Source: a virus. From it: a stretch of 37,953 nt of DNA. Positions 4,798 to 37,695 of this stretch are shown here, piece by piece. Location of the stretch: positions 1 through 37,953 of the IMG/VR virus record IMGVR_UViG_3300031812_000133; one strand, written 5' to 3'. The stretch's first letter is position 1. Every line of letters begins with the position of its first letter. The position numbers and the translations under genes are program-made. A model generated the notes under the pieces. That model ran no database searches. It was given only the letters and a program-made list of their open reading frames with translations, and was not told the origin of the DNA.

Positions 4798-5080
4798 ATG
4801 GCAGGCATGACGCCACGAGGGACAGCCGCGCCCCATTTTCGGCGCGTCGATCTATCGGCGCCCCGCTACCGCGGCGATGCCTGGCCGCGGATAGGCCGGC
4901 GTTGGGACAAGCTGGCGGTGGGGCGCTCTTTTTTCGTCTTGTCCGGGGTCGGTCTGGCAGTGGGAAACGCGCATGCCTCCTCGGACCGACCGGCGGCGCA
5001 GGATGGGGCGTCGTGTGACCGGACGTGGCGGCCGCGCCGCCCCGCTGCGTCCGGTCATCTTTTCGCGCTGGGGTTCATCC
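4798..5080 (+). pseudogene. Possible frameshifted small gene (VGxSFFV-type protein)
   Basis: This 400-base gap between genes (4681-5080) is open in frame from 4798 and encodes RRWDKLAVGRSFFV, a motif I associate with small phage proteins whose next part normally reads FFVPG followed by an Arg-rich segment. Here the Arg-rich segment (PPRTDRRRRMGRRVTGR) is in the +1 frame, right after a TTTTTT run. Either the gene is decayed, the assembly has an indel, or a frameshift is used. The reading continues into a terminator, so I treat it as probably broken; the start is uncertain. Confidence 0.3.
5016..5063 (+). terminator. Rho-independent terminator
   Basis: TGACCGGACG (5016-5025) pairs perfectly with CGTCCGGTCA (5048-5057), with an inner GGCGGC/GCCGCC stem, followed by TCTTTT. 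It would end transcripts from the 4721 promoter before the 5081 gene unless it acts as an attenuator. Confidence 0.7.
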
Positions 5081-5512: not shown

Positions 5513-6938
5513 TCGGATCGGTCGCCGCGTCATCTTGCTGTTGCGACATAATGGCCAAGCGGTCGAAAGCCAGCGCTGCGACGTGTTCGACGGGCAGCAG
5601 GTGCGCGACCTGGTGGGCACGTGGTGCCAGCGCTACCGCATCCCGCAGCAGGACTTGGAGGCTGCGCTGACCGCGGCCGCGGCCGAGTGCTTCGCGGCGA
5701 TGCGCTCTGCCAGGCCCGCAGAGCGCCAGTCGCCCCCTCCGGATGCGGCCGCGTCGCTGGGGCTGGCGTGGCCGGACCCGTGGCCCGACCCGGTCGCACT
5801 GGCCGACGTGCTCGACGAGGCGATGCGGTACGTGCAACGGTACGTCTGGCTGACACGCCAGCAGGCGGCGGCCGCCGTGCTGTGGTCGGCCTGGACCTAC
5901 ACCGTCGAGCGGTCGGACGTGGCCCCGATCCTGATCATCAATTCGCCGACGAAGCGCTGCGGCAAGACAACGCTGGTGCGGGTGGTCGCGTCGATGCTGC
6001 CGCGGGTGCTGGCGGCGGTTTCGATTTCGCCGGCGGCCCTGTATCGCGTCGTGGAGCTGGCGCAGCCGACGCTGGTGATCGACGAGGTGGACGCCTTCCT
6101 GGCCGATAGCGAGGAGCTGCGCGGCCTCGTCAACGCTGGCCATACGCGCGATACGGCCTATGTGGTGCGGCTGGACGGGGAAAGCTTGCTGCCGCGCCGG
6201 TTCAGCGTGTTTGGCCCCAAGCTCTTGGCCGGGATCGGTCGGCTGCCCGCGACCATCGAGGACCGGGGCATCATCCTGACCTTGCAGCGCAAGCCGCCCG
6301 GGGCGCACTGCGTGCGACTGGACCGCGACGCCCTGGCCCGAGGGGCGATCCTCGGCCGCAAGCTGCGCCGGTGGTCGCTGGATGAGGGGCAGCGGCTGAA
6401 GCCGACGGACGATCCGCCGTGCCCGGAGGTGCTCAACGACCGGGAGGCGGATTCCTGGCGGCCGCTTTTGGCCCTGGCCGACCTGGCCGGGGCGTGGTGG
6501 AGCCTGACGGCCCGGCAGGCGGCCGTGGCGCTGGCTGGGGCACAGCAGGACGAGCAGGACCTGGCCGTGGCCCTGCTGCGGGACGTGGCGGGGCTGGTCG
6601 CCGATGATGCCCGCTGCCGGTGGACGCCGGCCGACCTGGCCGTGGCCCTGGCCGAGATGGACGACCGCCCATGGCGCGACTACAGGCACGGCCGTCCGAT
6701 CAACGGGTTCCAGGTGTCGAAAACCCTGTCCCAGTTTGGACTTGCGACCAGACGCAGCGATGGGCGGAGGGTGTTTGATGCGGCGGAGCTGCTGGCAGTC
6801 GCCGAGCGGTACGCCCCGGGGGTGTCCGAAAAACGCGCCCCTGGCGCCCCTGTCCAGCGCAAGTTGTTCGAGGGCAACGAGTTACGCAGGGGCGCGTGCG
6901 ATGGCGACTGGGGCGAGTTTGGGGCGGCCTGCGGGTGA
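5472..6938 (+). CDS. DUF3631-type P-loop ATPase, probable replication helicase/primase
   Basis: A 488-residue ATPase. A Walker A variant SPTKRCGKTT lies at about 158-167 and Walker B LVIDEVDAF at about 201-209. The following segment LPATIEDRGIILTLQRK is typical of the DUF3631 region found in phage and mobile-element helicases and primase-associated ATPases. The C-terminal part is helical and may bind DNA. By position, just before a RusA-like resolvase, it is the best replication initiator or helicase candidate in a genome that has no recognisable polymerase. That role is inference; the ATPase fold is well supported. Confidence 0.88.
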   Translation: MNRVNGWTLDWAADRIGRRVILLLRHNGQAVESQRCDVFDGQQVRDLVGTWCQRYRIPQQDLEAALTAAAAECFAAMRSARPAERQSPPPDAAASLGLAWPDPWPDPVALADVLDEAMRYVQRYVWLTRQQAAAAVLWSAWTYTVERSDVAPILIINSPTKRCGKTTLVRVVASMLPRVLAAVSISPAALYRVVELAQPTLVIDEVDAFLADSEELRGLVNAGHTRDTAYVVRLDGESLLPRRFSVFGPKLLAGIGRLPATIEDRGIILTLQRKPPGAHCVRLDRDALARGAILGRKLRRWSLDEGQRLKPTDDPPCPEVLNDREADSWRPLLALADLAGAWWSLTARQAAVALAGAQQDEQDLAVALLRDVAGLVADDARCRWTPADLAVALAEMDDRPWRDYRHGRPINGFQVSKTLSQFGLATRRSDGRRVFDAAELLAVAERYAPGVSEKRAPGAPVQRKLFEGNELRRGACDGDWGEFGAACG

Positions 6939-31953: not shown

Positions 31954-32150
31954 TGTCCCATTTCCCAAGTGTCCACCTGACCGCGAACCGCGGATTTTTT
32001 CCAAGATTTTTTCGCCCCGCGGCCGCCCAAGCTCTTGACGAGTATTTGGCGTCCGGTAAAATAAAGGCGTCATCGGTGAGGGACCGATGGCGGCGGCCGC
32101 GGCCGACGCGGCGAAATCAGCGGGCCGGTAAGACCGGCCGGGAGGGTGCG
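31954..32150 (+). promoter_or_regulatory. Promoter-leader cassette A
   Basis: The 216-base gap before the 32151 gene begins with the shared motif TGTCCCATTTCCCAAG, then a short hairpin CCGCG-aac-CGCGG with T6 (terminator-like), a second T-tract one helical turn on, TTGACG (32035-32040), a 16-base spacer and TAAAAT (32057-32062). The leader carries GCGTC/GACGC closing pairs, the hairpin CATCGGT-GAGGG-ACCGATG, and GGCCGGT-aag-ACCGGCC just before GGGAGGG. Confidence 0.85.
32087..32131 (+). CDS. Leader peptide MAAAAADAAKSAGR (cassette A)
   Basis: A 14-codon reading frame with TAA inside the distal hairpin. GAGGG in the loop of the CATCGGT/ACCGATG hairpin is its Shine-Dalgarno, and the ATG is at the 3' end of the stem. 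The first nine codons recur in all five cassettes. Confidence 0.4.
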   Translation: MAAAAADAAKSAGR

Positions 32151-32546
32151 ATGAGCGGCGACGAACTGATTCGGAAGGTTTGCGACCTGGCGGTTGCGGG
32201 GACCTGTTCTCCCAAGGATGGGGGGATCACGATGCTGGGCGATGGCCCAATGTTTCCGCGGGGGCTAAGGATTCACACGCGGTATGAGCACATCGTCCAT
32301 CGTCGCGTGTGGCGCGACGGGCGCTGGGTGCCGATTACGACGCGCAAGCGCGACCGTTCTGGCCGTGTCTTCGCCGGGGAGCTGGTGATCGAATGGGTCG
32401 ATAACTGGGCGATCCAGACGGCCTGCCTGATTCTGGGACCGTTCACCCCAGGCTATCACCCGGTCGAAGTCCGGGATTACGGCGATCTGGTGCGGATTTA
32501 TTTGCCCGACGGTCGGGTGATCGACCGCCCGTCGCCGCGGGCGTAA
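32151..32546 (+). CDS. Accessory paralogue 1 (VWRxGRW family)
   Basis: A 131-residue protein of unknown function. It shares a layout with the genes at 33679, 35269, 32998 and 37198: VWRDGRW near the middle, then a GELVIEW strand, TACLILG, and a C-terminal LPDGRVIDRPSPRA. The pattern suggests a small all-beta domain. ATG 32151 is eight bases after GGGAGG of the leader. It has its own promoter cassette. No enzyme motif, signal peptide or membrane segment is visible. Confidence 0.85.
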   Translation: MSGDELIRKVCDLAVAGTCSPKDGGITMLGDGPMFPRGLRIHTRYEHIVHRRVWRDGRWVPITTRKRDRSGRVFAGELVIEWVDNWAIQTACLILGPFTPGYHPVEVRDYGDLVRIYLPDGRVIDRPSPRA

Positions 32547-32561
32547 CTAGTACGCCGCGGC

Positions 32562-32779
32562 GTGTGCCCCCGAGCGCCGCGGCGGCCAATAGGGCATCGG
32601 GGGCGCTGCCGGCGCGCGGAGCGCCGGGTGACGGCTGGTCCCCTTTTGCGAGTGTGGTACGCCCACGGACGACCGCGTGGAGGCGCCAACGCGACCGTGG
32701 GGGAGGTCCGGGAGGGGAGGAGTCCGGGGCGGGAAATGACCCGCAGTGGGGCGGCGGGGCGCAAGCTTCGCTGCCCCAC
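32562..32779 (+). ncRNA. Long structured RNA element, copy 1
   Basis: This fills most of the 451-base gap between the 32151 and 32998 genes. Stems in order: GCCCCCGA/TCGGGGGC, CCGGCGC/GCGCCGG, GTGG/CCAC, CGCGT/ACGCG, GCGGG/CCCGC and GGGGCGGC/GCTGCCCC. Compared with the copy at 36127, GTGG/CCAC becomes GCAG/CTGC and CGCGT/ACGCG becomes CGCGC/GCGCG, so pairing is kept while sequence changes. No reading frame is conserved through it. It may be a regulatory leader, a terminator complex or a free small RNA. Confidence 0.65.
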
Positions 32780-32800
32780 GGACCGGCCGTTTTTTCATCA

Positions 32801-32997
32801 GTCCCATTTTCGCAAGTGTCCACCTGACCGCGCTCCGCGGATTTTTTCCGAGATTTTTCGCCCCGCGGCGGCCGCAGCTCTTGACGACTATTTGGCACGC
32901 GGTATAATAAAGGCGTCATCGGTGAGGGACCGATGGCGGCGGCCGCGGCCGACGCGGCGAAATCAGCGGGCCGGTGAGACCGGCCGGGGAGGTTGCG
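32801..32997 (+). promoter_or_regulatory. Promoter-leader cassette B
   Basis: Same order as cassette A: GTCCCATTTTCGCAAG motif, CCGCG-ctc-CGCGG plus T6, second T-tract, TTGACG (32881-32886), 16-base spacer, perfect TATAAT (32903-32908), hairpin with GAGGG loop, and GGCCGGT-gag-ACCGGCC before GGGGAGG. Confidence 0.87.
32933..32977 (+). CDS. Leader peptide MAAAAADAAKSAGR (cassette B)
   Basis: Identical peptide to cassette A but ending in TGA, within the distal hairpin. The Shine-Dalgarno GAGGG is in the hairpin loop. Confidence 0.4.
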   Translation: MAAAAADAAKSAGR

Positions 32998-33345
32998 ATG
33001 ACGCGGTATCCATTGAGCAGCGAGAATGCTAAGGCGTGCGAAGCGGCGGCCAGCGGCGAGCGCTTGGGGCGTCCGCACTGGGTCGCAACGGGCGGCAGCG
33101 ACCGCTGCTGCGGAAGCTGGTATATGCTTGTCTGGCGCGACGGGGCGTGGCAACGCTTCGAGCATACGCTAGATCGCCTCTGGCCGGGCGAGGTCATGCT
33201 CTACATTGAGCGTGGCGAGCTGGCCATGGCGTACGTGGCGCTCAATGACGCCGTCGTTCAGATCGAGTTCACCCAGAGCGGCGCAGTTGTCCTGCAACTG
33301 CCCAGCGGCCACGAGCTGACGCGGCCCCTGCCTGCTCTGGACTAG
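32998..33345 (+). CDS. Accessory paralogue 2 (VWRxGxW family, divergent)
   Basis: A 115-residue protein with LVWRDGAWQRF, WPGEVMLYIERGE, MAYVALND and the C-terminal VVLQLPSGHELTRPLP, the same order of elements as paralogues 1, 3 and 4 but more diverged. The N-terminus contains a Cys pair (DRCCGSWY). Driven by cassette B. Function unknown. Confidence 0.82.
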   Translation: MTRYPLSSENAKACEAAASGERLGRPHWVATGGSDRCCGSWYMLVWRDGAWQRFEHTLDRLWPGEVMLYIERGELAMAYVALNDAVVQIEFTQSGAVVLQLPSGHELTRPLPALD

Positions 33346-33363
33346 TCTTCCCCTGCCGACGCC

Positions 33364-33415
33364 GTGTGCCCCCGAGCGGCGGCGGCAGCGCTGAGTTATC
33401 GGGGGATTTTCTTTT
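33364..33415 (+). terminator. CCCCCGA-family hairpin with T-rich tail
   Basis: CCCCCGA (33369-33375) pairs with TCGGGGG (33399-33405), followed by ATTTTCTTTT. It starts with the same GTGTGCCCCCGAGCG as the structured elements but ends as a terminator, 20 bases after the 32998 gene. Confidence 0.7.
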
Positions 33416-33435
33416 GCGCACGAGGCCGGGGGCCT

Positions 33436-33477
33436 GTCGCGGCTGGGGGCAACAGTCCCCAGCCGCGACCGTTTCTT
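33436..33477 (+). terminator. Strong Rho-independent terminator
   Basis: GTCGCGGCTGGGG (33436-33448) pairs perfectly over 13 bp with CCCCAGCCGCGAC (33457-33469), loop GCAACAGT, then GTTTCTT. A close relative is at 34177. With the hairpin at 33364 and cassette C it accounts for the 333-base gap before the 33679 gene. Confidence 0.8.
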
Positions 33478-33482
33478 GCGCC

Positions 33483-33678
33483 TGTCCCATTTCCCAAGTG
33501 TCCACCTTCCGCGTTCCGCGGATTTTTTTCGAGATTTTTCGCCCCGTGGCCGCCGAAGCTCTTGACGAGTATTTGCCACGAGGTAAAATAAAGGCGTCAT
33601 CGGTGAGGGACCGATGGCGGCGGCCGCGGCCGACGCGGCGACAATCAGCGGGCCGGCAGGGCCGGCCGGGAGGGTGCG
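33483..33678 (+). promoter_or_regulatory. Promoter-leader cassette C
   Basis: TGTCCCATTTCCCAAG motif, CCGCG-ttc-CGCGG plus T7, second T-tract, TTGACG (33562-33567), 16-base spacer, TAAAAT (33584-33589), hairpin with GAGGG loop. The distal stem is GGCCGGC-agg-GCCGGCC, a compensatory change from cassettes A and B. Confidence 0.86.
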
Positions 33679-33682
33679 ATGA
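33614..33682 (+). CDS. Leader peptide, 22 residues (cassette C)
   Basis: It starts MAAAAADAATISGPAG. One extra base relative to cassettes A and B changes the frame after DAA, so it reads through the distal hairpin and stops with TGA overlapping the ATG of the main gene (ATGA). This would couple translation of the two. Confidence 0.42.
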   Translation: MAAAAADAATISGPAGPAGRVR

Positions 33683-34140
33683 GCGGGACAACGACAACGA
33701 CGGCGACGGCTGGAATCCCCGAAGACGTGCGGATTGCCTGCGAGATCGCGGGCGCTGAGGCGGCGCCGGTCGGCGACGAAGTCATCATCACGGGCTGCGG
33801 CCGCATCAAATACGGGCGCGTTGGCGAATCGCCGACGCGCTGGTATCGGTACGTGTGGCGCGACGGCCGCTGGCAGAAGGTCGCCCGCACGTTGCGCCAG
33901 GCGGTCGGGCCGGTGCGCCCGGGCGAAGTGCTCGTCGAAGTAGTCGATGGCCGGCCAATTTCGGCCGGTTGTCTGGTGACCGCGAAGGGCTTCGTTCAGC
34001 TTTACGTGCGTGAGGCCGGCCCAAATACGGTTTTTCGGTTCCTTCCCGACGGGCAGATTGTGCCTGAGGCCAGCCCAAATACGATTTATGTGTTCCTTCC
34101 CGACGGGCAGATTCTGATTCGCCCGAACCCGCGGAAGTAA
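33679..34140 (+). CDS. Accessory paralogue 3 (VWRxGRW family)
   Basis: A 153-residue protein. A Thr-rich N-terminus leads to YVWRDGRWQKVARTL, RPGEVLVEVVDG, AGCLVTAKG and LPDGQILIRPNPRK, matching paralogues 1 and 4. Near the C-terminus an 18-residue unit containing NTVFRFLPDGQ is tandemly duplicated (NTIYVFLPDGQ). Translation is probably coupled to the leader peptide through ATGA. A terminator follows at 34177. Confidence 0.85.
   Translation: MSGTTTTTATAGIPEDVRIACEIAGAEAAPVGDEVIITGCGRIKYGRVGESPTRWYRYVWRDGRWQKVARTLRQAVGPVRPGEVLVEVVDGRPISAGCLVTAKGFVQLYVREAGPNTVFRFLPDGQIVPEASPNTIYVFLPDGQILIRPNPRK
34011..34118 (+). repeat. Tandem 54-bp duplication inside paralogue 3
   Basis: Two 54-bp units (34011-34064 and 34065-34118) both contain ttccttcccgacgggcagat and gaggccNgcccaaatacg. 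They are in frame and differ at several positions. Confidence 0.85.
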
Positions 34141-34176
34141 GTTCGGCCACGGCCGCATCGCGGGCCGTCTGGTCGC

Positions 34177-34209
34177 GGCTGGGGGCGACAGTCCCCAGCC
34201 GATTTTTTT
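34177..34209. terminator. Terminator between convergent genes
   Basis: GGCTGGGG (34177-34184) and CCCCAGCC (34193-34200) form a perfect stem with loop GCGACAGT, followed by GA and seven T. It ends the 33679 transcript, and lies 13 bases from the end of the minus-strand XRE gene. Confidence 0.85.
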
Positions 34210-34222
34210 GCGCTGGGGGTTT

Positions 34223-34507
34223 CTAGGGCACCAGATCGGCCGGGGCGCAGCCGACGGCAGCGGCCACCGATGCCAGCATCGGAAGGCTTGGCAGCGTCCG
34301 GCCGCGCTCGTAGGCCGACCAGGCCGCGGCAGTGATACCCGCCGCGGCGGAGGCCTGCTGCAAGGTGAGTCCGGCCGCGATGCGCCGGCCGCGCAGCCGC
34401 TGCGCCAGTATCTGGTGCAGCCGCGACGGATACACGGCCGGCGGACCCTTAGGGCCGCCGACGCCCAGTCGCCGATTGTCGCGTTTGCGGTTGTGCTGTG
34501 CCATCAT
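34223..34507 (-). CDS. XRE-family repressor candidate (only minus-strand gene)
   Basis: A 94-residue protein (93 from the second ATG at 34504, which has AAAGG four bases upstream). A basic N-terminal arm (HNRKRDNRR) precedes a helix-turn-helix domain with GLTLQQASAAAGI and YERGRTLPSLPMLASVAAAVG. It is similar in size and C-terminus (AVGCAPADLV) to the 4402 regulator. Being the sole gene on this strand, and divergent from duplicated promoter-leader sequences, it is a good candidate for a CI-like regulator of the array. That is inference; no operator is proven. Confidence 0.82.
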   Translation of the reverse strand: MMAQHNRKRDNRRLGVGGPKGPPAVYPSRLHQILAQRLRGRRIAAGLTLQQASAAAGITAAAWSAYERGRTLPSLPMLASVAAAVGCAPADLVP

Positions 34508-34516
34508 GCCTTTGGC

Positions 34517-34525
34517 ATTGTATCA
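34517..34525 (-). promoter_or_regulatory. Extended -10 promoter for minus-strand XRE gene
   Basis: On the minus strand TGATACAAT matches an extended -10 (TGnTATAAT). No -35 is visible. The start codon is only nine bases after it, so the mRNA would be leaderless or nearly so, as for lambda cI from PRM. Confidence 0.4.
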
Positions 34526-34547
34526 CCCAGCGCCTGCTGCCGCGGCC

Positions 34548-34818
34548 TGTCCCATTTTCCCAAGTGTCCACCTGACCTGGGCCGCGGATTTTTTTCGAGA
34601 TTTTTTCGCCCCAGGTCGGCCAGTCCCATTTTCCCAAGTGTCGACCTGACCGGGCCGCGGATTTTTTTCCAAGATTTTTCGCCCCGTGGCGGCCGCAGCT
34701 CTTGACGACTATTTGGCACGCGGTATAATAAAGGCGTCATCGGTGAGGGACCGATGGCGGCGGCCGCGGCCGACGCGGCGACAATCAGCGGGCCGGCACG
34801 GCCGGCCGGGAGCGAGCA
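34548..34818 (+). promoter_or_regulatory. Promoter-leader cassette D with doubled upstream block
   Basis: The 311-base gap upstream of the 34819 gene. The GTCCCATTTTCCCAAG block plus T-tracts occurs twice (34548-34622 and 34623-34693). The first copy ends in CCCAGGTC, which pairs with GACCTGGG at its start. Then TTGACG (34702-34707), 16 bases, TATAAT (34724-34729), the GAGGG-loop hairpin and GGCCGGC-acg-GCCGGCC. Confidence 0.86.
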
Positions 34819-34822
34819 ATGA
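34754..34822 (+). CDS. Leader peptide, 22 residues (cassette D)
   Basis: It starts MAAAAADAATISGPAR and ends in TGA that overlaps the ATG of the 34819 gene, as in cassette C. The Shine-Dalgarno GAGGG is in the hairpin loop. Confidence 0.42.
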   Translation: MAAAAADAATISGPARPAGSEQ

Positions 34823-35172
34823 ACGAGATCAGGTTTGATGCGTCATCGGTGCCGTTTGCTTGGGTTTTGCACGCCGCCCGGCTGCGCGGGCGCGTGCTGG
34901 CGTGCGAAGACGCCAGCGATCCGGGCGCCGATCTGGTGCTGCTGCGGCGGTTCGAGCGGCCGATCAAGATCAAACGCAGCGGGTCGGGGCGGGTGAACGA
35001 ACAGTTCGCCCGCCGGCTGCGCGTGAACGTCATCGTCGAGGGCACGGGCGACGGCCAGGTCATCGTCCGCGCCAGCCCACGCAATCTGCGGGCCATCGAG
35101 GCGACGATTCGGGACAAGGCCGGGTGGCGGGAGTTCCTCGAATCGTCGCGGCAGTCGGGCCAGACGTGCTGA
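34819..35172 (+). CDS. Accessory protein, unrelated to the paralogues
   Basis: A 117-residue basic protein of unknown function. It shows RGRVLACEDASDPGADLVLL, then RRFERPIKIKRSGSGRVNEQF, VNVIVEGTGDGQVIVRAS and a C-terminal helix (LRAIEATIRDKAGWREFLES). It lacks the VWRxGRW and LPDG motifs, which shows that one leader cassette type drives unrelated genes. The start is the ATGA overlapping the leader peptide. Confidence 0.82.
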   Translation: MNEIRFDASSVPFAWVLHAARLRGRVLACEDASDPGADLVLLRRFERPIKIKRSGSGRVNEQFARRLRVNVIVEGTGDGQVIVRASPRNLRAIEATIRDKAGWREFLESSRQSGQTC

Positions 35173-35189
35173 CGGTAGGGGCCGATGCC

Positions 35190-35268
35190 GTGTGCCCCCG
35201 AGCGGCGGCGGCCAAAGCGGGGCATCGGGGGCGTTTGCGGCGCACGCAGCGCCGGCCGGGAGGTTTCG
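35190..35268 (+). ncRNA. Truncated structured element before 35269 gene
   Basis: It begins GTGTGCCCCCGAGCG, forms CCCCCGA/TCGGGGG and GGCGC-acgca-GCGCC, then passes directly into GGCCGGGAGG, the Shine-Dalgarno region. It lacks the later stems of the long copies and has no promoter, so the 35269 gene is probably read through from cassette D. Confidence 0.5.
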
Positions 35269-35622
35269 ATGGGCGTCGTTATCCGCGAGCTCTGCGACAT
35301 CGCCTGGACCGAAGCCGATCCTGTCTGCGCGTCGGTGCCCACGCTTGGACATCTGGACGTGAGCACGACCTATGAACGTCGGGTGTGGCGCCGTGGGCGA
35401 TGGCGGCAGTTCGCCGCCGCCGATAACCCAGTCGGACGTGTGCGCGCGGGCGAGATCGTCATCGAGTACACGCAGGGCGCCCCCGTGACTACGGCGTATC
35501 TGATCACGGGCCAGGTGTCCTGTGGCTACGTCCGTCTGGCGGTGCGCCAGACGGAGTCAGGGGCCGTGGCAATCGAGCTGCCGGACGGGCGCGTCATCGA
35601 GCGCCCCGACCCGCGGCAGTGA
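35269..35622 (+). CDS. Accessory paralogue 4 (VWRxGRW family)
   Basis: A 117-residue protein with RRVWRRGRWRQF, RAGEIVIEYTQG, TTAYLITG, AVAIELPDGRVIERPDPRQ. The N-terminus (IRELCDIAWTEADPVCAS) resembles that of paralogue 1 (IRKVCDLAVAGTCS), so these two are the closest pair. GGGAGG lies six bases before ATG 35269. Function unknown; no catalytic motif. Confidence 0.86.
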   Translation: MGVVIRELCDIAWTEADPVCASVPTLGHLDVSTTYERRVWRRGRWRQFAAADNPVGRVRAGEIVIEYTQGAPVTTAYLITGQVSCGYVRLAVRQTESGAVAIELPDGRVIERPDPRQ

Positions 35623-35645
35623 TTCCCAAGGGCCGCTGCCGCGGC

Positions 35646-35845
35646 CTGTCCCATTTTCCCAAGTGTCCACCTGACCGCGCTCCGCGGATTTTTTTCGAGA
35701 TTTTTTCGCCCCGCGGCCGCCGAAGCTCTTGACGAGTATTTGTCCTGCGGTATAATGTAGGCGTCATCGGTGAGGGACCGATGGCGGCGGCCGCGGCCGA
35801 CGCGGCATCAATCAGCGGGCCGGCACGGCCGGCCGGGAGGTTACG
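35646..35845 (+). promoter_or_regulatory. Promoter-leader cassette E
   Basis: TGTCCCATTTTCCCAAG motif, CCGCG-ctc-CGCGG plus T7, second T-tract, TTGACG (35729-35734), 16-base spacer, TATAAT (35751-35756), the GAGGG-loop hairpin and GGCCGGC-acg-GCCGGCC. The leader frame starts at 35781 (MAAAAADAASISG) but runs past the main start because ATGG replaces ATGA. Confidence 0.86.
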
Positions 35846-36091
35846 ATGGCCGACACTCGCACACTCGATCACGTCCTGTATGCTCGCGGGAGCTCCCTTC
35901 CGAAGGGGTGGCGCTGGGGGGCGCAGTTTTCGATCCGCGGCGGGGCAATCGCGGGCCACTACGCCATCCGCAACAGCGATGGCTGCTGCGTTATGGTCGC
36001 CGATTCGGGCGAGTCGGACGCCCCGAGCCCGGCGGCCGCGATTCGCGCCGCCATCGCCGACGGCGTGATTCCGCGGGCCCGCCGCCGGTAA
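35846..36091 (+). CDS. Small accessory protein, 81 residues
   Basis: A small protein of unknown function with a beta-like centre (WGAQFSIRGGAIAGHYAIRN), a Cys pair (DGCCVMVAD) and an Ala-rich C-terminal helix (PAAAIRAAIADGVIP). It starts at ATG 35846 after GGGAGG of cassette E. It does not share the paralogue motifs. A longer reading frame overlapping it from 35781 is most likely the run-on leader peptide. Confidence 0.78.
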   Translation: MADTRTLDHVLYARGSSLPKGWRWGAQFSIRGGAIAGHYAIRNSDGCCVMVADSGESDAPSPAAAIRAAIADGVIPRARRR

Positions 36092-36126
36092 GCGGGCGGA
36101 CCAGTAACCTGGCAGCGGCCGCCGCC

Positions 36127-36347
36127 GTGTGCCCCCGAGCGGCGGCGGTCAAAGCGGGGCATCGGGGGCGTTGCCGGCGCACGAAGCGCCGGGACTTTGG
36201 TCGGCTCCCCTTCCTGCGAGTGCAGCAAGCTGCCGGACGACCGCGCTGAGGCGCCAGCGCGACCGGTGGTGAGGTCCCGGAGAGGTCGGAGCCGGGGCGC
36301 GGGAATTGACCCGCAGTGGGGCGGCAGCGTGCGCGTTGCCTGACCCC
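36127..36347 (+). ncRNA. Long structured RNA element, copy 2
   Basis: This occupies the 325-base gap between the 35846 and 36417 genes. It has the same six stems as the copy at 32562, with GCAG/CTGC and CGCGCT/AGCGCG in place of the copy-1 pairs, and a terminal GGCAGCG-tgcg-CGTTGCC stem closed by GGGG/CCCC. Conserved unpaired blocks include GGCGCC and GACCCGCAGTGGGG. The downstream gene keeps the GGCCGGC/GCCGGCC hairpin before its Shine-Dalgarno, but there is no TTGACG/TATAAT promoter. Confidence 0.65.
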
Positions 36348-36416
36348 TAGGGGCCGACCAATTTTTCGAGAATCGTGTCACATTAGCGGGCCGGCAAGGC
36401 CGGCCGGGAGGGTGCG

Positions 36417-37070
36417 ATGAAGGTATACCAGTACAACGATGGCAAGCAGCCTGGCGGCAGGAGGCCGAGGCTTTATTTGGCGCGGGGCGCCGACGTTGTT
36501 CGGTTCGATGGCCAGGGCATCCCTGGATTCTGCACAATCCAGAGGGAGCACTATACCCCCAACGGCAAGTGGTCGAACACCACATACGAGCTTCTACTCG
36601 CGCCCGGCGTGCGCCCCCTCTATTTCCTTTCGCCGCTGCACGGCTTGTGGGGCGAAGAGTTCGCCACCTGGGGGCAGGTGGCTGCAGAATTAGGGCTACC
36701 GGTGGACGTGGCCCGCGAAATTGTGCGGGCCGAATATCCGAAGACGGCGGAGCGTCTCGACCAGGTCGAGCGCTTTGCGGCGGAAGTTGCGCAAGGCGGG
36801 CAGTCCGTCGAGACCGTCATTGTCTCGTTCGGTGCCCCGACCCGTCGGGAGATGGACAACGGCTATTGGGACCAGCCGAAGTCTGCCAGCACAAGCGACG
36901 GCCGCCAGGTCACAATCGCCCCTGGCCCCGGCTGGTGGGCCGAGCCAGTCGTGATCGAGCCCGAGGGGGCGCGCATCATCTCCTCGCGCCACACGCCCGG
37001 AATGCACGGCGGGTATTGGGCAGTCGAAGTGGCTGTGCCACTACCTTGTCCGAGTCCGCCATCGCAATGA
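36417..37070 (+). CDS. Accessory hypothetical protein, 217 residues
   Basis: A protein of unknown family. The first half has beta segments (LYLARGADVVRFDGQGIPG). A central stretch, ATWGQVAAELGLPVDVAREI, resembles a helix-turn-helix and may bind DNA. A charged helix follows (ERLDQVERFAAEVAQGG), then a Trp/Gly-rich C-terminal part (GPGWWAEPVVIEPEGARII). It starts as ATGA after GGGAGGG in the shared leader. Transcription probably reads through from cassette E. Confidence 0.82.
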   Translation: MKVYQYNDGKQPGGRRPRLYLARGADVVRFDGQGIPGFCTIQREHYTPNGKWSNTTYELLLAPGVRPLYFLSPLHGLWGEEFATWGQVAAELGLPVDVAREIVRAEYPKTAERLDQVERFAAEVAQGGQSVETVIVSFGAPTRREMDNGYWDQPKSASTSDGRQVTIAPGPGWWAEPVVIEPEGARIISSRHTPGMHGGYWAVEVAVPLPCPSPPSQ

Positions 37071-37088
37071 CCTTCCCCCGCCGTCGCC

Positions 37089-37174
37089 GTGTGCCCCCGA
37101 GCGGCGATGGCGGCGCTGACCCATCGTGGGCGCAGTGGGCGGGCGTATCGCCCAGACCATCACCAGCCCAGGTG
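37089..37174 (+). ncRNA. Short structured leader element (CCCCCGA family, type II)
   Basis: The counterpart of 1521-1610. Stem GCCCCCGA/TCGTGGGC has one mismatch, then TGGGCGG/TCGCCCA and CCAGC-ccaggt-GCTGG. GAAAGGAG and ATG 37198 follow directly. Confidence 0.45.
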
Positions 37175-37197
37175 CTGGCTGAAAGGAGACCGCGTCA

Positions 37198-37695
37198 ATG
37201 TGGCGCGAAAGCTTCGTGAGCAATGAGACAGCGGCCCTTTCGAGGGCCGACGTTCAGCACGCCGCGAACGCCGAGTTCCTGCGCCGGGCGTCCGCTATTG
37301 CCGCGAGTCGTACACCCCCGTCGGGGGCGGCTTATTCGGTTCGTGCGGCCGTAAAACACTACGGCCGCCGCGGCAAATGTCTGGAACACTGGGCACGGGC
37401 TGTGTGGCGCCCTCAGTCTGGGCGCTGGCGGTGGCTGTATTTCGGCCACCGCTCGCTAGCCGCCGACAAGCGAAAGGATTACGTGGTGGGCGACGTGTGG
37501 CCTGGCGAGATCGTCGCCCAGTATGAGTTTACGGGCATTCTTACGGGGCCGGCGGCCATCACAGCCGCGTTTCTGGTGCTTGAAAACGGCGATCTTTGCC
37601 CGCTGCGATTTTTATCGCGGCGGGCCGATTTGCGTGTGCAGTTGCCGGGCGGCAAAGTTCTCGTCCTGCCGGCCGTCTTTACGAAATGGAGCTAG
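37198..37695 (+). CDS. Accessory paralogue 5 (VWR...GRW family, longest)
   Basis: A 165-residue protein with an Ala-rich helical N-terminal extension (ADVQHAANAEFLRRASAIAA). The shared domain reads ARAVWRPQSGRWRW, WPGEIVAQYEF, AAFLVLENG and VQLPGGKVLVLP, with a small insertion inside the VWR-GRW motif. AAAGGAG is eight bases before ATG 37198. It is two bases from the gene crossing the circle junction, so the two are co-translated. Function unknown. Confidence 0.83.
   Translation: MWRESFVSNETAALSRADVQHAANAEFLRRASAIAASRTPPSGAAYSVRAAVKHYGRRGKCLEHWARAVWRPQSGRWRWLYFGHRSLAADKRKDYVVGDVWPGEIVAQYEFTGILTGPAAITAAFLVLENGDLCPLRFLSRRADLRVQLPGGKVLVLPAVFTKWS

Follow-up and report, generated by a model that had tools for sequence, protein, structure and literature searches.

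A structured RNA in two diverged copies within the small-gene array of a metagenomic phage: a candidate discrete noncoding RNA

Within a 38-kb metagenomic phage genome (IMG/VR record IMGVR_UViG_3300031812_000133, whose whole 37,953-nucleotide stretch is hereafter the window), two diverged copies of one element, designated E1 and E2, lie in an array of small-gene cassettes, each of them in the gap that separates a stop codon from the following small gene. The question raised by this locus is whether these copies encode a structured RNA and, if so, whether this RNA acts as a molecule of its own or on the genes around it. A sequence-only reading had already placed both copies at these sites and had described them as a structured RNA of about 220 nucleotides (nt) that fitted no family it could name. 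Comparison with homologues from metagenomic phages bears out the structured RNA through covariation, and we favour, with a probability of about 0.55, the view that its core acts as a discrete, trans-acting, phage-encoded structured noncoding RNA of ~165-175 nt.

The core RNA is present only twice in the window, E1 and E2 being 74% identical (Table 1). Its homologues were sought by scanning IMG/VR with exact patterns of the core and of a pseudoknot module described below, and four further full copies were found in three other metagenomic phages. The phage 3300036768_000895 (L011/L047) carries one E1-type and one E2-type core; 3300044960_000285 (L016/L046), whose array is shortened by deletion, carries an E2-type core only; and 3300043543_000115 (L017) is a different phage, which has in common with the window a RusA protein of 60% identity over the alignment. 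The core alignment and all pair counts given below for the core comprise these six full copies from four phages. With a covariance model built from the same six sequences, they score 151-191 bits and all other sequences remain at background. Furthermore, a tract of T5-T6 directly follows each of the six copies. The 220-nt unit first proposed does contain the core but is not a single unit, as its first ~70 nt (GTGTGCCCCCGAGCG...) form a separate pseudoknot-plus-hairpin module that also occurs without the core, and L017 has the core without the module. Likewise, the boundaries initially drawn at 32562-32779 and 36127-36347 located the elements properly and missed their ends, leaving out the 3' strand of the closing stem and the U-run.

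The consensus fold obtained with RNAalifold consists of a closing stem, P1, and a junction carrying P2, P3, P4 and P5, followed by U5-U6. In this fold 96.1% of the pair cells are formed, compared with only 34-46% in slid structures, and two-sided changes occur at 15 of the 56 core pairs, against 6.0 +/- 1.7 in shuffled alignments and 1-4 in slid structures. The RNAalifold energy of the alignment is -88.1 versus -57.0 +/- 4.0 after column shuffling, and for four of five measures, including the two-sided pair changes, none of 500 shuffles reached the observed value. The changes are easily followed along the helices. P1, which corresponds to the different but complementary terminal stems noticed earlier, differs in sequence among E1, E2 and L017 and keeps its complementarity. 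P2 is a bulged stem whose outer part, P2a, occurs as GCCCACGG/CCGUGGGG, GCUGCCGG/CCGGUGGU and GCUCCCGG/CCGGGAGU, and whose inner part, P2b, occurs as CGCGU/ACGCG, CGCGC/GCGCG and CACAC/GUGUG, the first two of these being a pairing that had been correctly spotted in the window. Its 10-nt loop reads U or G followed by GAGGCGCCA, and the GGCGCC within it, rightly singled out as a conserved loop, is invariant in all copies. On the other hand, a further helix proposed between GTGG and CCAC or GCAG and CTGC has to be abandoned: it pairs in 75% of the cells, 173 of 500 shuffles do as well, and it overlaps the 5' strand of P2. The sequence GACCCGCAGTGGGG, taken for a second conserved loop, actually runs from within the P4 loop through the 3' strand of that stem into the beginning of P5. 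Covariation leaves two helices unproven, namely a three-pair helix within the 5' junction segment and P4, whose invariance neither supports nor contradicts its pairing.

Several observations concur to assign the RNA to the plus strand. Among the pair cells, 41 are GU and none is AC, a count that alone is biased to the plus strand by the prediction of the plus structure with GU allowed; the consensus energy of the minus strand is only -71.0, and favourable covariation is restricted to the plus strand. As the polarity of the promoter and of the T-run agrees with the GU excess and with the energy comparison, we consider that the core is encoded on the plus strand, the z-scores of single-copy folds being not decisive between strands. 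Moreover, between the window and L011 E1 is 93% and E2 89% identical, while the four-fold degenerate sites of the preceding genes are identical at 65% and 66%. A conserved fold with compensatory changes is one mark of a phage-encoded structured noncoding RNA, and the core is almost certainly a structured RNA under selection.

The genomic surroundings bear on the way this RNA may act. In the window, E1 is followed by the promoter of the next cassette and E2 by a gene for a protein of 217 amino acids (aa), which is replaced in L011 and L016 by a gene for an unrelated protein with a start codon within ~20 nt of E2. The upstream gene stays the same across the window group. In L017, as read by eye, the core stands alone, without pseudoknot and without a gene directly in front, and lies directly 3' of a TTGACA-N14-TATAAA sequence (TTGACA..TGATATAAA) with a TG before the second hexamer; its neighbours are a small helix-turn-helix gene on one side and, ~200 nt away, an integrase gene on the other. 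Neither flank is thus constant across copies, which favours a separate RNA over a riboswitch, and the discrete trans-acting RNA is likewise preferred because the L017 core is alone behind its promoter-like site and the downstream genes differ. As regards small RNAs derived from 3' untranslated regions (UTRs), the position and the U-run fit in three phages and do not in L017, with its own promoter-like site.

In L017, a partial second core copy (700-850, with matches in 700-749) comprising P3, P4 and an enlarged P5 lies after the T-run of the first copy and adjoins the integrase gene on its 5' side. From the sequence, pairing is conceivable between CGACGA, the 3' strand of this partial copy, and the P1 5' strand of the first copy, so that two alternative 3' halves may compete.

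The following scheme would accommodate the discrete RNA. In the window phage, short transcripts starting from a small-gene promoter would yield the core as their 3' end, through processing or termination, the pseudoknot near the stop codon would separate it from the coding part of the transcript, and transcription would stop at P1 and the U-run; in L017, the core would be transcribed alone from its own promoter. The action of the folded RNA would depend on its overall shape and its conserved loops, the most likely binding partner being a protein of host or phage or a ribonucleoprotein, and the GGCGCC palindrome could hold two molecules together as a homodimer. Several points weigh against this reading. 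The core is known from only four phages, all metagenomic, and with so few lineages the cell counts overstate the number of independent events. P1 spans 165 nt and is not a classical terminator hairpin. The promoter-like site of L017, with its spacer of 14, was missed by a simple promoter scan. The core is no more complementary to the leader shared across the array than shuffled controls are, and no antisense target was found. Finally, in three of the four phages the core follows a small gene as part of its 3' UTR, where a cis role is possible.

This last point introduces the alternative that survives best, which we regard as possible though unlikely: a cis-acting 3' UTR element that, jointly with the pseudoknot, terminates the messenger RNA (mRNA) of the preceding small gene and shields it, by blocking exonucleases or by serving as a complex terminator, without ever existing as a separate RNA. 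It would suit the three phages in which the core follows a small gene and a pseudoknot, the T5-T6 at the end of all copies and the ordinary terminator-like hairpins that end other cassettes. However, it accounts poorly for the L017 core, which has a promoter-like site in front of it in place of a gene, for the many cassettes, indeed most of them, that have no core, and for a sequence conservation of loops and junction exceeding the needs of a terminator or stabiliser.

Self-assembly is a rather doubtful extension of the discrete RNA: the core would associate through GGCGCC into homodimers or into a larger RNA or ribonucleoprotein particle, GOLLD/ROOL-like but far smaller, and the pseudoknot would shield the core or release it from the mRNA. 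The invariant palindrome suggests that dimers would be allowed, with a calculated energy of -11.7 kcal/mol for the loop self-duplex, but a chance origin of six self-complementary bases in a loop of 10 nt would not be very surprising, and six copies are too few to discriminate.

A riboswitch or attenuator acting on the downstream gene is improbable. The compact junction-type fold, the conserved loops, the U-tract that comes next and the nearby start codon after E2 in L011 and L016 would be expected of such an element, but the core keeps no constant position before related downstream genes, either between phages or between copies, being followed by the 217-aa protein, the unrelated protein, a new promoter or an integrase. 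Furthermore, no competing antiterminator shared by all copies was noticed, though not in a systematic test, and no Rfam riboswitch matches. More improbable still is a DNA-level element, such as a replication origin, an attachment or packaging site or the end of a mobile cassette, mistaken for RNA through its inverted repeats; two copies within a repetitive array, and an L017 core beside an integrase and followed by a partial copy, might evoke it, but the absence of AC beside abundant GU cells, the better folding and covariation of one strand and the matching polarity of T-tract and promoter-like site argue for RNA. Lastly, a decayed protein gene or a functionless by-product of GC-rich repeats, evoked by the GC-rich repetitive region and by an open frame crossing E1, is next to negligible, as the indels are of non-codon size and the E2-type copies have stops in all plus frames, which leaves no conserved open reading frame and speaks against gene decay, and as conservation exceeds that of four-fold sites and the helices covary.

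The module found upstream is a structured element in its own right. Its alignment comprises 18 copies from three phage lineages (the window group, L014 and L005). Outside the window it occurs in L007, L016, L014, L005 and L011, the last with seven copies in an 8.4-kb part, and three of the copies in the window have no core. An H-type pseudoknot is formed by a stem S1 flanking UGUGCYCCCGAG and by a stem S2, in which GCYCCCGA pairs with UCGGGRGC. The pairs are formed in 94% of the cells, and 19 cells are changed on both sides versus 5.1 in shuffles; in L014, one S2 pair has gone from C-G to U-A. The module has no match in Rfam. It starts 7 nt past the stop codon before E1 and 7-12 nt past it in most copies, all three stop codons being used. 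Stop-codon read-through promoted by the pseudoknot was considered and rejected, given the three stop types and a frame that is often closed within 0-5 codons after the stop.

The absence of a nameable family was confirmed by a scan of the window with Rfam 15 (4,227 families), which gave no match at the gathering threshold; at E up to 10, only sub-threshold chance matches appeared around E1 and E2, and none in L017. Rfam found nothing at the core in the related loci and a tRNA fragment elsewhere. This tRNA-like sequence of 61 nt (Rfam tRNA, 32 bits, TGC anticodon region), located at 5831-5891 (-) in L011 and 4960-5020 (-) in L016 and absent from the window, is apparently a truncated tRNA gene and possibly an old attachment site. 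Searching viral contigs with the core patterns retrieved real copies only in the four known phages, other matches being at background score, and BLASTN against phage and plasmid records gave short chance matches only. No further core was present in the searched relatives found through the neighbouring 124-aa protein, RusA or the L017 integrase, nor in 291 genomes from the phylum of an unrelated chance match, a phylum not known to be that of the host. Two matches of a 20-base P4 pattern in GTDB species genomes were dismissed as chance by context and model score, as were weak covariance-model matches in L048 and L003 as background. Its confinement to a handful of metagenomic phages would account for the absence of the core from Rfam.

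The comparison with known RNAs is instructive. OLE, GOLLD and ROOL form homo-oligomers, partly via symmetric (self-complementary) kissing loops (PMC12286853). GOLLD and ROOL are, like the core, phage- or prophage-associated structured noncoding RNAs without known function; however, these RNAs and OLE are several hundred nt long and adopt other folds, and on sequence grounds the likeness of the ~170-nt core to their kissing loops would come down to one palindromic loop, carried by a stem of freely varying sequence. The pRNA of phi29 is a phage-encoded structured RNA of about 170 nt that multimerises by loop pairing. The core is similar in size but does not match the Rfam pRNA, and in place of phi29-type packaging the window phage encodes a large terminase of the ordinary kind and a Mu-type portal. 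Some small RNAs are released from the 3' regions of mRNAs. Among phage-encoded RNAs, IpeX (167 nt), IsrK (217 nt), DicF, c4 and AgvB, none longer than a few hundred nt, act on genes of the host or of the phage (PMC12197685); such RNAs act mostly by short antisense pairing, whereas the core has a conserved multi-stem fold with covarying helices. By its mode of discovery, the core belongs with the candidate structured RNAs revealed by comparative genomics (Weinberg et al. 2010, PMC2864571), being conserved and covarying and not in Rfam 15.

The first 119 bases of the window are identical to the last 119, which indicates a complete circular or terminally redundant phage genome. It encodes a terminase large subunit, a Mu-type portal, RusA, a DUF3631 protein, C5 and D12 DNA methyltransferases, glycosyltransferases and an FkbM-type methyltransferase. 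The cassette array occupies 31.9-37.2 kb, and its length varies among related phages, part of it being deleted in L016. Five cassettes open with a 166-nt repeat that carries a TTGACG-N16-TAWAAT promoter-like sequence (five sites versus 0.6 expected); a small gene without Pfam match comes next, and often a stop-proximal element. The repeat contains a hairpin, CATCGGTGAGGGACCGATG, and a second one, CCGGT-AAG-ACCGG or CCGGC-AAG-GCCGG, apparently compensatory. Several of the small proteins (32151-37692) share a WRDGRW-like motif, none of those having a Pfam match. Near-identical strong terminator-like hairpins (GTCGCGGCTGGGGGC..CCCAGCCGCGAC) are found twice 3' of small genes (33436-33469 and 34172-34201), and the only minus-strand gene noted in the array (34223-34507) encodes a helix-turn-helix protein (Pfam HTH_31), a candidate repressor.

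Table 1. Features of the core RNA, the pseudoknot module and the cassette array, in window coordinates
Feature	Position	Strand	Evidence
Core RNA copy E1, 168 nt; P1 closes junction with P2-P5, then U6	32629-32796	+	cmsearch 156.9 bits, alignment
Core RNA copy E2, 173 nt; architecture as E1	36195-36367	+	cmsearch 190.8 bits, alignment
P1 of E2, closing stem adjoining U-run (36196-36210/36350-36362)	36196-36362	+	6/13 pairs changed on both sides
P2 of E2: P2a 36229-36236/36263-36270, P2b 36242-36248/36255-36261	36229-36270	+	six pairs changed on both sides
GGCGCC palindrome, P2 loop of E1	32682-32687	+	alignment
GGCGCC palindrome, P2 loop of E2	36250-36255	+	alignment
P3 of E2 (36274-36280/36292-36298), purine-rich loop AGAGGTCGGAG	36274-36298	+	
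P4 of E2 (36299-36303/36310-36314), invariant stem, AAWYGA-like loop	36299-36314	+	
P5 of E2 (36317-36321/36345-36349 and 36323-36330/36333-36340)	36317-36349	+	two pairs changed on both sides
H-type pseudoknot 5' of E1: S1 32554-32562/32575-32583, S2 32566-32573/32597-32604	32554-32604	+	18-copy pair counts
Second hairpin of module, CCGGCGC..GCGCCGG	32609-32627	+	sequence, alignment
H-type pseudoknot module 5' of E2	36119-36169	+	alignment, pair counts
Pseudoknot module without core; S2 continues into T-rich tail, terminator-like	33356-33420	+	
Pseudoknot module without core, just 5' of ribosome-binding site of next gene	35182-35256	+	
Pseudoknot module without core	37081-37155	+	
166-nt repeat before five small genes	31996-32161, 32842-33007, 33523-33688, 34663-34828, 35690-35855		
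Promoter-like TTGACG-N16-TAAAAT, cassette ending in E1	32035-32062	+	
Promoter-like TTGACG-N16-TATAAT, cassette ending in E2	35729-35756	+	
Small gene, 131 aa, 5' of E1; no Pfam or PHROGs family	32151-32546	+	
Small gene, 81 aa, 5' of E2; no Pfam or PHROGs family	35846-36091	+	

Phages have yielded few structured RNAs without known function, and those known, such as GOLLD and ROOL, have turned out to be unusual molecules. With its ~170 nt, a clear fold backed by covariation, two diverged copies in one genome and a stand-alone copy with an apparent promoter and terminator, the core is small enough for in vitro synthesis, probing, imaging and pull-down. Furthermore, the pseudoknot represents a second undescribed RNA motif, which could show how compact phage operons insulate their genes or stabilise their messages.

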